A stretch of 64,000 nucleotides of DNA, from NCBI RefSeq assembly GCF_030698175.1, contig NZ_JAUYNT010000025.1, forward strand, positions 105,712 to 169,711. The letters are read 5' to 3'. The position numbers were made by a program, and so were the translations under genes. The notes beneath the pieces were generated by a model. The model was not told the origin of the DNA, did no database searches, and worked only from the letters and a program-made list of their open reading frames with translations. Source of the DNA: Pseudomonas sp. (lineage in GTDB: Bacteria > Pseudomonadota > Gammaproteobacteria > Pseudomonadales > Pseudomonadaceae). Shown piece by piece: positions 17,326 to 22,645 of this stretch; within the stretch, counting starts at the first letter, position 1, and the number at the start of each line of letters is the position of its first letter.

Positions 17326-17367
17326 ACGGGGTCGTCTTGCTATAAGCAAGGCGGCCCCGTTTTGTTT
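17326..17367 (+). terminator. intrinsic terminator of putP
   Basis: ACGGGGTCGTCTTGC pairs with GCAAGGCGGCCCCGT (15 bp with two G-U pairs, loop TATAA), followed by TTTTGTTT. It is 18 bases past the putP stop. Confidence 0.85.
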
Positions 17368-17394: not shown

Positions 17395-17539
17395 GCTGAA
17401 GCAGCCATGGCTCAGGCTAAAAGATCTTATGGTGAGCTGGCTTCGTGCGTGAACTTATGGTCTGGGGCGACTAACCTGCCTGTGGGGACTCTTTGCCACA
17501 CATCCACCGTCGGTCATTTTCATCCGCCAGGTAATTGCT

Positions 17540-18232
17540 ATGTCTGAACGCTGGTTGCTGCTGCGCAATATCGCTTTGGTCTGTGGGCTGCTGTGCAGCC
17601 GTGGGGCCTGGGCGGTCGAGGTACAGATCCAGATGCAGGACCTGCAGGGGCAGCCGCTGGCCGATGCGGTGGTTACTTTGCAGGGGCCGTTGGGGGTGGC
17701 CATAAGCCCGGCGCCGGCGGTGATGGATCAGGTGCAGAAACAATTTCTGCCCAGAGTCCTGGCGGTGCGCAGCGGCACCCGGGTGAGTTTTCCGAACCGC
17801 GACGACATTCGTCATCAGGTGTATTCCTTCTCGCCGGCCAAGCGTTTTGAACTGCGCCTGTACAAGGGCACGCCGTCCGAGCCGGTGCTGTTCGACAAGC
17901 CGGGGCTGGTGGTGCTCGGCTGCAATATCCACGACTGGATGCTCGGTTATATCTACGTCACAGACGACCCCTGGTTTGCGGTCAGTGATGCCACCGGTCA
18001 GCTCGACTTCAAGCAGTTGCCGCCCGGTCATTACCGCGTGACGGTGTGGCACCCGCAGCTGGCCGATGGATTGGCGCAAAGCAGTGCCGATATCGAGGTG
18101 CCAGCTGCTGGGCTGCAACTCAAGTTGCCGCTGGCCGTGACTGCCGCGTCCGGCCCCGCCAGCGTGACACCGGCCGCCCCGACGGGCTTTTCTGAAGCGT
18201 TCAAAAAGGCCGCCAATGAAGATCAGCCATAG
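17540..18232 (+). CDS. periplasmic cupredoxin-like protein (methylamine-utilisation-like)
   Basis: 230 residues with a signal peptide ending near RGAWA-VEV. The N-terminal part is Ig/peptidase-regulatory-like (DLQGQPLADAVVTLQGP), then a plastocyanin-type fold. Candidate type-1 copper ligands are His92 (IRHQVYSF), Cys128, His131 and Met134 in GCNIHDWMLGY, which is the classic H...C-x2-H-x2-M layout. The family is often labelled methylamine utilisation protein without evidence. The stop overlaps the start of the EAL gene by 17 bases, so the product is made together with a membrane c-di-GMP enzyme. It may donate electrons or report copper/redox state in the periplasm; that role is inferred. Confidence 0.8.
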   Translation: MSERWLLLRNIALVCGLLCSRGAWAVEVQIQMQDLQGQPLADAVVTLQGPLGVAISPAPAVMDQVQKQFLPRVLAVRSGTRVSFPNRDDIRHQVYSFSPAKRFELRLYKGTPSEPVLFDKPGLVVLGCNIHDWMLGYIYVTDDPWFAVSDATGQLDFKQLPPGHYRVTVWHPQLADGLAQSSADIEVPAAGLQLKLPLAVTAASGPASVTPAAPTGFSEAFKKAANEDQP

Positions 18233-20561
18233 CTTTCAAACCCGCATTGCCACGGTGCTGATCCTGCTGCTGTTGGTGGTGGTCGGGGCGCTGTACTTTG
18301 CCGTGCAGGTGGCCACCGCGGCGGCGGTCAAACAGCAGGCCGTGGCCCAGTTAGGGGTGGGTGTGCGGGTCTTTGAGCGGCTGCTGGATAACCGTGGGCG
18401 GCAGCTGCGCGATGCCTTGCAGGTGTTGTCGGCGGATTTTGGTTTCAAGGATGCGGTGGCCAGTAATGACGCCGCCACTATTCGCTCGGTGCTGGCCAAC
18501 CATGGCGCGCGCATCAGTGCCAGCGAAGTGCTGTTGTTGGGCCTGGATGGTCAGGTGCTGGCTTCCAGTGTCGACAGCTTCGCCGCCGGCAGTCCGTTCC
18601 GTTACAGCCAGCAGTTGCTGCAGGCGCGGCAGTTGGGGCAGTCGAAGCTGATTGTGGCCCTGAACGGTGAGGCTCATCTGTTGGTGGAGGCTCCCGTGCT
18701 GGCGCCGTTGCCGATTGCCCGGGTGGTGATGGGTTTTCGCATGGATCAGGCATTCGCCCGTGAGCTGCGTGAACTGACCAATCTGGAGGTGTCCTTTGTC
18801 GCCTTCGATCAGGGCCGCCAGGGGCCGTTGGTCAGCACCCTGAACGCCGAGCAGGGCGCCGACATGTTGGCGCTGAACCCTTCGCCCACGCCGGCGCACC
18901 TGAGCGATCTGGATTTTGCCGGCCAGCATTACCTGACCGAGCAGTTGTCCTTGGCACAGGCCGCGGACTATCAAGTACAGGCGTTTTTGCACAGTTCGCT
19001 GGACCGGGCGATGGGCGCCTTTGCGAGCCTAGACCGAAACATTTTTCTGATCGCCCTCGCGGCCCTATTTGCCTCTTTGGTCGGCGCCTTGCTGCTGGCG
19101 CGCAGCGTGTCGCAGCCGGTGCGTGAGCTGGCGCGGGTGGCCGAACGGGTCGGCCGTGGTGATTACCTGACGCCACCGGCCTTACAGCGCCGCGATGAAC
19201 TGGGGGTGTTGGCCCAGGCGATCACCCTGATGCAGGCCGGGATCGCCGAGCGCGAGCGCCAGCTGGCACACAACGCCCTGCATGACGGCCTCACCGGGTT
19301 GCCCAATCGCACCCTGTTGCTGGAGCGCCTCGGCAGCGCCATCGCCGCCGGCCGGCCGGTGGCGTTGCTGTATCTGGGCATTGGCAATTTTCGCAGCGTT
19401 AACGAGAACTACGGTTCGGCTACCGGTGACCAGGTATTGCAGCAACTTAGCCAGCGTCTGCAGGCCAGTTTGCGCCCCGGTGATAGCCTGGCGCGACTGC
19501 TGGCTGACGAGTTTTTGTTGTTGCTGGAGCAGGCCGACAGCGACAGCGCGGTAGCCATTGCCGACCGCTTGCAGCAACTGCTGGTACAACCGCTGCGGAT
19601 CGTCAATGTCGAGATGCAGCTGGACTGCCGAATCGGTATTGCCGCCTATCCGCTGGACGCCGAAACCGCCGAAGAGCTGGTCCGTCGCGCCGGCATTGCC
19701 ATGCACGATGCCGCCCAGCAGCCGGGGCATTTGCAGGTCTATCAGCAGGGCCGCGATGATGCTCATCAGCGGCAGATCAACCTGATTCGCGACCTGCGCC
19801 GCGCGCCGGCGAATGCCGAGCTGCAACTGCATTACCAACCCAAGTTGAGCCTGACCAGCGGCCGGGTGGAGCAGGCCGAGGCCTTGTTGCGTTGGCAGCA
19901 TCCCACCTACGGCACGGTCTCGCCGGCTGAGTTCATTCCCTTGGCCGAGCGTACCGGCAGTATCCAGCTGCTCACGGCCTGGGTGATGGGCGAGGCGTTA
20001 CGCCAGCTGCGGGAGTGGGCCACTGCGGGCCTCTATCTGCAGCTGTCGGTGAATGTCTCGGCGGATGACCTGCATGACCAGCAGCTGGCCGATAAAGTCA
20101 GCCGCCTGCTGGCGCAGTATCAGGTACCGGCCACTCAACTGATTTTTGAAATCACCGAAAGTGCGGTGATGCAAAACCCAGAGCAGGCGCTGCTGATCTT
20201 GCAGCAACTGCGGGCTCTGGGCATCAGCCTGTCGGTGGATGATTTTGGCACCGGTTATTCGTCCTTGTCGCAGCTCAAGCGCATGCCGGTGCAGGAGCTG
20301 AAGATCGATCAGTCATTTATCCGCGATCTGGATGAAACCAGCGAAGACGCGGTGATCGTTCGCTCCACCATTCAGATGAGCCACAGCCTGGGCCTCAAGG
20401 TGGTGGCCGAGGGCGTCGAATACGAGCGCAGCCTGCGCCTGCTGGAGCGCTGGGGCTGTGATACCGCGCAAGGTTATCTGATCAGCCGGCCACTGCCGGC
20501 GCAAGCCTTTGCGGCCTGGCTGGAGCAACCGCTCAAGCCGATGTTGTTGCGCGAGGCATAA
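18216..20561 (+). CDS. membrane GGDEF(degenerate)-EAL cyclic-di-GMP phosphodiesterase
   Basis: 781 residues. There is a TM helix at about 12-32, a periplasmic sensor at about 35-265, a second TM near 270-292 (FLIALAALFASLVGALLL), and a HAMP domain (SVSQPVRELARVAERVGRGDY). A GGDEF domain at about 350-510 follows, in which the signature is LADEF (429-433), so cyclase activity is very unlikely. The EAL domain at about 525-775 is complete: EAL at 555, SVNVSA, EITES, DDFGTGYSS at 675, ELKIDQSF and VVAEGVE. It should therefore hydrolyse c-di-GMP, perhaps with GTP regulation through the degenerate GGDEF. It overlaps the cupredoxin gene and is followed by DUF3034 after four bases. Confidence 0.9.
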   Translation: MKISHSFQTRIATVLILLLLVVVGALYFAVQVATAAAVKQQAVAQLGVGVRVFERLLDNRGRQLRDALQVLSADFGFKDAVASNDAATIRSVLANHGARISASEVLLLGLDGQVLASSVDSFAAGSPFRYSQQLLQARQLGQSKLIVALNGEAHLLVEAPVLAPLPIARVVMGFRMDQAFARELRELTNLEVSFVAFDQGRQGPLVSTLNAEQGADMLALNPSPTPAHLSDLDFAGQHYLTEQLSLAQAADYQVQAFLHSSLDRAMGAFASLDRNIFLIALAALFASLVGALLLARSVSQPVRELARVAERVGRGDYLTPPALQRRDELGVLAQAITLMQAGIAERERQLAHNALHDGLTGLPNRTLLLERLGSAIAAGRPVALLYLGIGNFRSVNENYGSATGDQVLQQLSQRLQASLRPGDSLARLLADEFLLLLEQADSDSAVAIADRLQQLLVQPLRIVNVEMQLDCRIGIAAYPLDAETAEELVRRAGIAMHDAAQQPGHLQVYQQGRDDAHQRQINLIRDLRRAPANAELQLHYQPKLSLTSGRVEQAEALLRWQHPTYGTVSPAEFIPLAERTGSIQLLTAWVMGEALRQLREWATAGLYLQLSVNVSADDLHDQQLADKVSRLLAQYQVPATQLIFEITESAVMQNPEQALLILQQLRALGISLSVDDFGTGYSSLSQLKRMPVQELKIDQSFIRDLDETSEDAVIVRSTIQMSHSLGLKVVAEGVEYERSLRLLERWGCDTAQGYLISRPLPAQAFAAWLEQPLKPMLLREA

Positions 20562-20565
20562 GCCG

Positions 20566-21408
20566 ATGCGAGCTGCACTGCTGGCTATTTTACTCTGTGG
20601 CCTGCCGGCCCTGACGCTGGCCGATAACGGCCGCTTACTGGCCACCGGCGGTGCCAGCAGCCTGGAAGGTGCCGCCGGTGGCGGGATTACCCCCTGGGCA
20701 GTGCTGGCCGGTTATGGCGAAGCCGGAGAGTGGGGCGCCACAGCTTTTGCCACTCGGGTCAACAGCCAGGATTATCACCTGGATGTAAGCGGCGCCGCGC
20801 TGGCCTGGGACAATCGTGTGGAGCTGTCTTTCGCCCGGCAGCGCCTGGATATCAGCAGCTTGAACCTGCCTGATAGCAGCCTCAATCAGGATATTTTCGG
20901 GCTCAAGCTGCGGCTGTTCGGCGACCTGTTGTATGACCAGCTGCCGCAGGTTTCCCTCGGTGTGCAGCATAAGCAGCAACAGAACTTTCTGATCCTCGAA
21001 CTGGTCGGCGCCCGCCGCGACGCAGACACCGAGGGCTATGTGCAAGCCAGTCGATTGTTGCTTGGCGGCGCCTTTGGCTACAACCTGATGGTCAATGGCG
21101 GGCTGCGTTACAGCCGGGCCAATCAGCTGGGCTTGCTAGGCTTTGGTGGCGATGCCAACGATCGGCGTGAAGTGCTGGCGGAAGGCTCGTTGGCGGTGCT
21201 GTTCAACCCGCGCTGGATGCTGGGCGTGGAGTACCGGCAGAAACCGGACAACCTGTCGTTTGCCAAGGAGAATGACTGGTCCGACCTGTTTGTCGGCTAC
21301 TTCCCCAGCAAGCATCTGGCGCTGGTGCTGGCTTGGACGCAGCTGGGCGATATCGCCGGACAGAGCAACCAGAATGGCCCGTATTTATCCGTACAGGGGA
21401 GTTTTTAA
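20566..21408 (+). CDS. DUF3034 outer-membrane beta-barrel-like protein
   Basis: About 280 residues from the ATG at 20566 (MRAALLAILLCGLPALTLA-DNG), a cleavable signal; the longer track start is rejected. The mature part begins GRLLATGGASSLEGAAGGGITPWAVLAGYG, the DUF3034 pattern, and continues with alternating beta strands ending in GPYLSVQGSF with a terminal Phe, as in outer-membrane barrels. Function is unknown. It is the third gene in the operon, four bases after the EAL gene and two bases before the hemoglobin gene. Confidence 0.8.
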   Translation: MRAALLAILLCGLPALTLADNGRLLATGGASSLEGAAGGGITPWAVLAGYGEAGEWGATAFATRVNSQDYHLDVSGAALAWDNRVELSFARQRLDISSLNLPDSSLNQDIFGLKLRLFGDLLYDQLPQVSLGVQHKQQQNFLILELVGARRDADTEGYVQASRLLLGGAFGYNLMVNGGLRYSRANQLGLLGFGGDANDRREVLAEGSLAVLFNPRWMLGVEYRQKPDNLSFAKENDWSDLFVGYFPSKHLALVLAWTQLGDIAGQSNQNGPYLSVQGSF

Positions 21409-21410
21409 GC

Positions 21411-21827
21411 ATGCGTGTCTGGCTGTTGATCGGCCTGTTGCTCAGCGCCTGCGCGCAAACGCCGCAGCGCCCGGACAGCCTCTATCAAGCCTTGGGCGAG
21501 CAGGCCGGGCTGACGCGGATTGTCGAAGGCATGTTGCTGAATATCGCCAAGGACCCGCGCATCGTCGGTCATTTTGCCAACGTCGATATCACCCTGTTGC
21601 GTGACAAGCTGGTGCAGCAGTTCTGCGTCGAAACCGGCGGCCCCTGCCAGCCCAGTGGCGACAGCATGGAGGAGGTGCACAAGGGCCTGCACCTGACCCG
21701 CAGCGACTTCAATGCCCTGCTGGAAGACCTGATTGCCGCCATGGAGGCCCAGGGCGTGCCGGTGCCGACCCAGAACCGCCTGCTGGCGCGCCTGGCGCCG
21801 ATGCGTGGGCAGATTATCGAGCGTTGA
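21411..21827 (+). CDS. lipoprotein group-1 truncated hemoglobin
   Basis: 138 residues from the ATG at 21411. A lipobox (LLIGLLLSA-C14-AQ) makes it a membrane-anchored, periplasmic globin, unusual for truncated hemoglobins, which are mostly cytosolic. The two-over-two fold is seen in SLYQALGEQAGLTRIVEGMLLNIAKDPRIVGHF, with the proximal histidine at His90 in EEVHKGLHLTRSDF. It probably binds O2, NO or CO near the membrane. As last gene of the cupredoxin-EAL-DUF3034 operon it could supply a gas or redox signal. The first 21 codons are absent from the usual globin core and are the lipoprotein signal. Confidence 0.85.
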   Translation: MRVWLLIGLLLSACAQTPQRPDSLYQALGEQAGLTRIVEGMLLNIAKDPRIVGHFANVDITLLRDKLVQQFCVETGGPCQPSGDSMEEVHKGLHLTRSDFNALLEDLIAAMEAQGVPVPTQNRLLARLAPMRGQIIER

Positions 21828-21926
21828 GGGTGCAGTGACATTCCCTGAGTGGAGTTCAATCGGCTGGGTTAGGCCACGCCCGCTCCCGGCGGGCTTGCGG
21901 CATTCACCCCATCCATGGGGATTGCG

Positions 21927-22138
21927 CGAACCATGGCCTGCCAACAACGCAAAACCCGACCGCGCCGTAACCCACCATGGCGCTCGACCGGCAAACCGCA
22001 TGGTGGGTTACGCGGCGCCCGGCTTGCGCGGTGATGCAAACAACCACCGTCCGCGCCGCTAACCCACCCTACGAATTACCGCGTACCAGGCATCGCCTAA
22101 CCGCCCCGCACGCTTCAACACACAACTGGTACATAGCC
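21927..22138 (-). mobile_element. truncated MITE, family A (minus orientation)
   Basis: Its right edge ends AACTGGTACATAGCC, the inverse of GGCTATGTACCAGTT. Internally it carries GTAGGGTGGGTTAGC-type palindromes. Its reverse complement matches the element at 44.68 kb over about 200 bp, including a GCGTGCGG...GGTTAGGCGA leader. The left end is lost at about 21927. It is followed by seven T residues. Bases 21828-21926 hold nothing I recognise. Confidence 0.75.
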
Positions 22139-22145
22139 TTTTTTT

Positions 22146-22410
22146 GGCGCGGCACTAGTTACCTGCTGCAAAGGGTCTGACCTTTCGAGGGGTTAGCCTT
22201 GATACTTGTGCTGCCTGCACCGGCCAATCGCGGATAAATCCGCTCCTACGGGGTTAGCCGGCCGATGAAATTGTTGTGGGTGCCGAGCTTGTGTAGGAGC
22301 GGATTCATCCGCGAAGCGAGCGCGAGCACACTGGCAATCCTGCAGGGCCACAACCGCTCTTTGTCCCACCTTCATCTGGGTCACAAACCAGAGACTACGA
22401 GACTTGCGCA
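22146..22410 (+). mobile_element. MITE, family B, right end replaced
   Basis: A degraded left end (GGCACTAGTTACCTGCTGCA) is followed by about 250 bp homologous to the complete element at 50.9 kb. Shared segments include CACCGGCCAATCGCGGATAA, GTAGGAGCGGATTCATCCGC, AATCCTGCAGGGCC and CATCTGGGTCACAAACCAGA. The homology stops near 22410, where another repeat begins. Confidence 0.75.
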
Positions 22411-22519
22411 GGCTACAGCTTTTGTAGGAGGGACTTTAGCCGCGATGGCTGTGCGTTGGTCGCGGCTAAAGCCCCTCCTACGAAGTGTGTGGCATCCAAC
22501 AGGTAACTGGTACAGAGCC
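22411..22519. mobile_element. short element with GTAGGAGGGACTTTAGCC REPIN
   Basis: Contains GTAGGAGGGACTTTAGCCGC and its inverse GCGGCTAAAGCCCCTCCTAC (22424-22481). It ends in CAACAGGTAACTGGTACAGAGCC-type right terminus, followed by eight T residues. The left part is truncated against the preceding element. Confidence 0.65.
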
Positions 22520-22537
22520 TTTTTTTTGCGCTGAACC

Positions 22538-22645
22538 TGTAGGTCGATTTTGTGGTGGGCTTTAGTCCACCAGCGCCGGGTAAGAGCCTTGGTGGGCTAA
22601 AGCCCACAAAAAAAGCTGCGTGCAACACGTAACTGGTACATAGCC
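22538..22645. mobile_element. short element with TGGTGGGCTTTAGTCCACC repeat
   Basis: Holds TGGTGGGCTTTAGTCCACCA and TTGGTGGGCTAAAGCCCAC. It ends with the shared right terminus AACTGGTACATAGCC at 22645, followed by eight A residues belonging to the oprN terminator. The segment CCCACAAAAAAAGCTG just before the end is shared with the element at 44.9 kb. Confidence 0.65.

Follow-up and report, generated by a model that had tools for sequence, protein, structure and literature searches.

A conserved operon predicted to encode a cupredoxin, a membrane c-di-GMP phosphodiesterase, a DUF3034 barrel and an exported globin: a candidate envelope sensing assembly of pseudomonads

Introduction

There are a few bacterial systems in which proteins of the envelope are tied to the level of c-di-GMP. 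In NspS-MbaA, described in Vibrio cholerae and Sinorhizobium meliloti, a periplasmic polyamine-binding protein (NspS) and a membrane GGDEF-EAL protein (MbaA) set c-di-GMP together; MbaA keeps both activities (motifs SGDEF and EVL), and we know of no barrel or globin that is part of this system. YfiBNR of Pseudomonas aeruginosa and HmsCDE are built in three layers acting on c-di-GMP, i.e., an outer-membrane lipoprotein, a periplasmic regulator, and an inner-membrane enzyme. In the former, YfiN makes c-di-GMP. In the globin-coupled sensors and DosP-type enzymes, enzyme and haem domain are fused in one cytoplasmic protein.

The operon presented here lies in a window of 64,000 nucleotides, the whole stretch of DNA that was analysed, from a Pseudomonas-type genome of 4.55 Mb. 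It consists of four genes, hereafter CUP, PDE, DUF3034, and GLB, and its layout may be compared to that of NspS-MbaA or YfiBNR, built of other proteins. As in NspS-MbaA, a periplasmic protein accompanies a membrane GGDEF-EAL protein. However, the partner here is a cupredoxin, which places the locus outside that system, and the GGDEF domain, unlike that of MbaA, is degenerate. As in YfiBNR and HmsCDE, three layers can be recognized, and with HmsCDE there is the additional parallel that HmsC responds to the redox environment. In contrast to YfiBNR, the enzyme is predicted to degrade c-di-GMP, the lipoprotein is a globin, and the set further includes a barrel and a cupredoxin; the operon contains no YfiR-type domain, and the DgcN/YfiN model scores far below its cut-off, so the locus is not of the YfiBNR type. 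Lastly, a haem protein is linked to a c-di-GMP enzyme as in the globin-coupled sensors, but GLB is not fused to anything; it is a protein of its own, exported to the opposite side of the membrane.

That no named system has this composition, as the original prediction put it, agrees with the open-access literature, where no description of the four-gene set was found. Searches of that literature for a cupredoxin with an EAL protein, a methylamine utilization protein with GGDEF, or an exported truncated globin with c-di-GMP returned nothing relevant. DUF3034 is named in two open-access papers, and the title of neither has it as its subject.

The Operon and Its Products

The features of the locus are the following:

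17326..17360, + strand: terminator-like stem-loop between putP and the operon (16-pair stem, 3-base loop, then a T-rich tail)
17450..17477, + strand: conserved promoter-like element TGAACTT-N14-CTAANCT, about 60 bases 5' of the first gene
17540..18232, + strand: CUP, exported cupredoxin with a CarboxypepD_reg-like segment (fold match and copper ligands)
18216..20561, + strand: PDE, inner-membrane dCache_3-HAMP-GGDEF(LADEF)-EAL protein (Pfam)
18333..18962, + strand: dCache_3 periplasmic sensor domain of PDE, residues 40-249 (PF14827, E 2.8e-15)
19788..20492, + strand: EAL domain of PDE, residues 525-759 (PF00563, E 3.3e-77)
20566..21408, + strand: DUF3034, predicted 12-strand outer-membrane beta barrel with a C-terminal Phe (PF11231, 359 bits)
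21411..21827, + strand: GLB, exported lipoprotein group-1 truncated globin (Bac_globin, 43 bits)

The four genes follow each other on the + strand from 17540 to 21827 in the order CUP-PDE-DUF3034-GLB. The tight packing originally described, with overlaps or gaps of 2-4 bases, is confirmed by the coordinates of the open reading frames: CUP and PDE overlap by 17 bases, and gaps of 4 and 2 bases precede DUF3034 and GLB, respectively. Pfam matches, fold matches, and metal ligands likewise support the composition first proposed, a cupredoxin, an EAL phosphodiesterase, a DUF3034 barrel, and a lipoprotein globin, and the locations given to the four products hold as predictions, with signal peptides judged by eye or by pattern. 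Two refinements are needed: the GGDEF domain is degenerate (LADEF), and while pseudomonads have the globin as a lipoprotein, in several other lineages it is only Sec-exported.

The stem-loop at 17326-17360 would separate the operon from the upstream putP; the assignment is based on its 16-pair stem, and over the whole stem-loop scan such sites were no more numerous than in shuffled sequences. With regard to the promoter-like element, the form GAACTT-N14-CTAA, at fixed spacing, was found in 11 of 138 stretches upstream of CUP, vs 0.2 in shuffled sets. The same letters could be read as a sigma-70 promoter, GTGAAC-N17-TAACCT. Use of the element as a regulon marker was set aside, its exact form being present once in the genome. 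No clear enrichment of Fnr/Anr, CueR, Fur, FleQ, RpoN, NarL, or PhoB motifs was seen in the 26 sequences upstream of CUP that were searched. Downstream of the operon, the intergenic region 21880-22560 holds repeated TAGGAGCGG and CTGGTACA-AGCC motifs, REP-like by eye.

CUP has no match to a cupredoxin family in Pfam, where it only hits CarboxypepD_reg, below threshold. Its identity comes from the AF2 model (pLDDT 84), whose matching folds in the PDB are amicyanin, pseudoazurin, and plastocyanin, and from the His, Cys, His, and Met that characterize a type-1 copper site on a cupredoxin fold, all present in sequence and model: H92, C128, H131, and M134, with a C-x2-H-x2-M loop as in amicyanin. 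The last three are kept in 118 of 119 aligned rows and H92 in 117, the remainder being gaps. Judging from sequence and model, CUP is an exported amicyanin-like cupredoxin and a predicted copper binder. It shares with amicyanin and pseudoazurin the fold and the ligand loop, and differs from them by the CarboxypepD_reg-like segment, by a C-terminal helix, and by gene neighbours that are signalling receptors instead of amine dehydrogenases.

The EAL domain of PDE retains its catalytic residues: E, L, N, E, E, D-D, K, E, and Q are identical in all 132 aligned rows, the A of the EAL motif is kept in 120, and E735 in 131 (one E to D). PDE is thus predicted to degrade c-di-GMP. The GGDEF domain lacks an intact GG(D/E)EF active site, reading LADEF in the window; over the aligned set, only 16 rows keep the first G and 63 the second. 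This degenerate domain would be regulatory, not a cyclase. A search of PDB sequences with the sensor of PDE returned only chance-level matches. In several loci, including L024, L025, and L026, an extra PDE paralogue, about 58% identical, adjoins the operon.

DUF3034 matches PF11231 over its full length (positions 1-255 of 255) with 359 bits against a cut-off of 25. PDB sequences gave matches at chance level only; the AF2 model shows 12 strands at moderate confidence (pLDDT 69, pTM 0.72), and Foldseek relates it to the porin-like proteins NanC/KdgM, FapF, OmpG, and PcoB. Together with an N-terminal hydrophobic stretch and a final Phe, both read from the sequence, DUF3034 is predicted to be a 12-strand outer-membrane barrel.

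The last product, GLB, carries a lipobox (LSAC) and finds its best PDB match in trHbN of M. tuberculosis. The residues expected of a group I truncated haemoglobin, His F8 (His90) and Phe CD1 (Phe55), occur in 128 of 128 globins, and Cys72 and Cys79 in 127 each. The distal pocket is different from that of O2 or NO enzymes, which have Tyr at B10 and polar residues at E7/E11. GLB carries Leu at B10, E7, E11, and G8. Across the 128 globins, Tyr B10 never occurs, E7 is L, F, V, I, or A, E11 is L or F, and all four positions are apolar in 125. In clade N, low O2 affinity goes with Leu at E7, E11, and G8 as its signature, and globins of low affinity have been described as NO, CO, or redox sensors (PMC4720485). 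Since its pocket has no residue to stabilize O2, GLB is predicted to have a low affinity for this gas. Compared to mycobacterial trHbN, GLB belongs by profile to the same family and retains His F8 and Phe CD1, but it has lost Tyr B10 and Gln E11, is exported, and has the conserved pair Cys72/Cys79. Of 127 globins, 103 have the lipobox pattern of a lipoprotein; the others have a looser lipobox or a Sec-type signal only.

Conservation across Genomes

The original prediction was to be abandoned if the gene set did not occur outside this strain, and it clearly does: 39 of the 399 genomes sampled from the phylum have DUF3034, the samples being rich in Pseudomonas. The conservation of gene order, which it proposed to check, is also found. 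All 11 other DUF3034-bearing genomes of the same genus in the sample of relatives have CUP-PDE-DUF3034-GLB, as do most other DUF3034 loci. Another scan kept the best 80 DUF3034 loci, nearly all from Pseudomonas, Stutzerimonas, or Halopseudomonas. Across Proteobacteria, the identity of the set is roughly 35-70%.

The partners follow DUF3034 closely. The GLB subfamily (E <= 1e-33) is found in 39 of 39 genomes with DUF3034 vs 2 of 360 without, and a CUP homologue in 38 of 39 vs 32 of 360; Fisher tests that ignore phylogeny give p values of about 4e-52 for DUF3034-GLB and about 1e-32 for DUF3034-CUP. CUP adjoins PDE in 113 of 117 cases where it is linked to DUF3034, and the trees of the two proteins share their main groupings, including the paralogous pair of the window genome, with a distance correlation of 0.83.

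The order varies. CUP-PDE and DUF3034-GLB are transcribed divergently in six loci (L161-L166) from more distant genomes, and in L150 the order is DUF3034-GLB-CUP-PDE. DUF3034-GLB exists without CUP and PDE (L016, L143, L151, L153, and L160), and CUP-PDE exists without DUF3034-GLB, also in the window genome (L174). By sequence comparison, CUP and its receptor emerge as a conserved pair with broadly agreeing gene trees, and DUF3034 and the exported globin as a near-obligate one; most lineages have both pairs in a single operon, and others transcribe them divergently.

The window genome has a second copy of each pair. L016 (G000:C2, 6179-11663) carries DUF3034-GLB without CUP or PDE, preceded by a 607-residue protein of no Pfam family and followed by an ECF sigma factor, an RskA-type anti-sigma factor, and a fasciclin protein. 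L174 (G000:C19, 6859-9878) carries CUP-PDE without DUF3034 or globin.

CUP beyond the DUF3034 Loci

What does CUP do where DUF3034 is absent? Among 29 homologues away from DUF3034, 14 adjoin a GGDEF-EAL protein and 13 adjoin a second barrel-like family of about 410 residues, with a weak Porin_4 match in one member. This second barrel stands beside CUP, with or without PDE, in L175-L177, L179-L183, L188, and L190-L193, and the order CUP-PDE-barrel recurs with it in eight of the 29 loci. Elsewhere, the output changes: CUP lies beside a dCache_3-HAMP-Ser/Thr kinase in L194, a dCache_3-HAMP-class III cyclase in L198, and hybrid histidine kinases in L196 and L197. For the latter two, Pfam finds HAMP and no dCache in L196 and neither in L197, so that the case for a shared sensor there relies on their matching the PDE profile in part. 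Weak CUP matches (L203-L208) were left out; of these, L206 was checked and is an ordinary Copper-bind protein.

CUP has a C-terminal tail that varies with the type of barrel. In many DUF3034 loci this tail ends in FGDAF-x-KA or LQ-x-RFR, and in many loci of the second barrel it is acidic, with Tyr as the last residue.

In these genomes, CUP, a membrane receptor, and a barrel recur, with output and barrel type varying. This suggests that CUP serves a membrane receptor as its partner in the periplasm, working with an outer-membrane barrel, and that the globin belongs to DUF3034. Given such a pattern, a sensing assembly is more probable than a simple redox pathway.

Possible Mechanism and Alternatives

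The reading that we prefer, and to which we give an even chance, is that the products of the four genes work as a single signalling assembly across the envelope, a redox or gas sensor that sets c-di-GMP. The barrel and the globin would be located at the outer membrane. There, NO, CO, or another redox-active small molecule, possibly admitted by the barrel, might be bound by the globin. By way of the redox state of its copper, its occupancy, or docking, the periplasmic cupredoxin could relay the resulting state to the dCache domain of PDE; coupling by HAMP would then alter the hydrolysis of c-di-GMP by the intact EAL domain, and hence attachment or motility. In favour of this assembly are the kept gene order, the co-occurrence of GLB with DUF3034, the pairing of CUP with receptors of several outputs and with a different barrel, the broadly agreeing trees, the conserved functional residues, and the apolar distal pocket. 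On the other side, the dCache domain may bind a small molecule of its own without CUP, and each pair occurs without the other, so neither strictly needs the other. The original idea of envelope redox or gas sensing has gained from the association of CUP with barrels and with sensor-HAMP receptors of multiple outputs and from a globin pocket predicted to be of low O2 affinity.

Could the locus be a redox or detoxification chain instead? CUP and the exported globin would form an electron-transfer pair acting on peroxide, NO, or another oxidant, the barrel would admit the substrate, and PDE would simply be co-expressed. Type-1 copper sites are normally electron carriers, and in L195-L197 CUP lies near genes that, by eye, are di-heme peroxidase-like and would fit an enzymatic chain as well as they fit the sensing assembly. 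However, the most constant neighbour of CUP is a membrane receptor, often with overlapping reading frames, CUP-receptor pairs are found with no adjoining redox enzyme, and globins acting as O2 or NO enzymes usually need polar distal residues, of which there are none here; we hold this chain to be unlikely. Rather unlikely, too, is the uptake and sensing of copper or a metallophore, where copper would enter through the barrel and be accepted in the periplasm by CUP, and PDE would report the copper status. The conserved type-1 site would suit this role, and so would the fact that, even where it lacks a receptor, CUP adjoins barrels, which belong to at least two families (L175, L177, and L191-L193). 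PcoB is among the structural matches of the barrel, but the barrel resembles many porins equally, with NanC, KdgM, OmpG, and FapF ranking above PcoB; moreover, the globin is left without a role, and the 26 sequences upstream of CUP revealed no copper-regulator motif.

One of the best structural matches, FapF, is the barrel through which Pseudomonas secretes amyloid, and this brings to mind a role in envelope structure or secretion: barrel and globin would be an outer-membrane complex exporting a polymer or a peptide, with the globin as a structural cap and PDE setting the surface state. This is quite improbable, because the invariance of His F8 and Phe CD1 argues for bound haem, and the operon has no amyloid or polymer genes. 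As for a chance packing of genes with no common function, it has only the general compactness of bacterial genomes to commend it, and it is scarcely credible given the conservation across Proteobacteria and the rearranged orders that still keep the set together.

Returning to the sensing assembly, a broader proposal can be put forward tentatively, as something possible rather than probable. CUP, a sensor-HAMP receptor, and a barrel may together be the heart of a class of envelope-spanning receptors that has so far gone undescribed, with a blue-copper protein as periplasmic signalling partner. The barrel would be swapped among its members, and so would the output (phosphodiesterase, Ser/Thr kinase, nucleotide cyclase, or hybrid histidine kinase); in the DUF3034 branch, the exported globin would add a haem-based gas or redox input.

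Concluding Remarks

About one in ten of the genomes sampled from the phylum has DUF3034, and nearly all of these have the partners described above as well. If the sensing assembly is real, c-di-GMP would receive reports from beyond the cell membrane, through a copper protein and a haemoglobin, and plant-associated and environmental pseudomonads would have a testable route from the redox chemistry of the envelope to decisions about biofilm.
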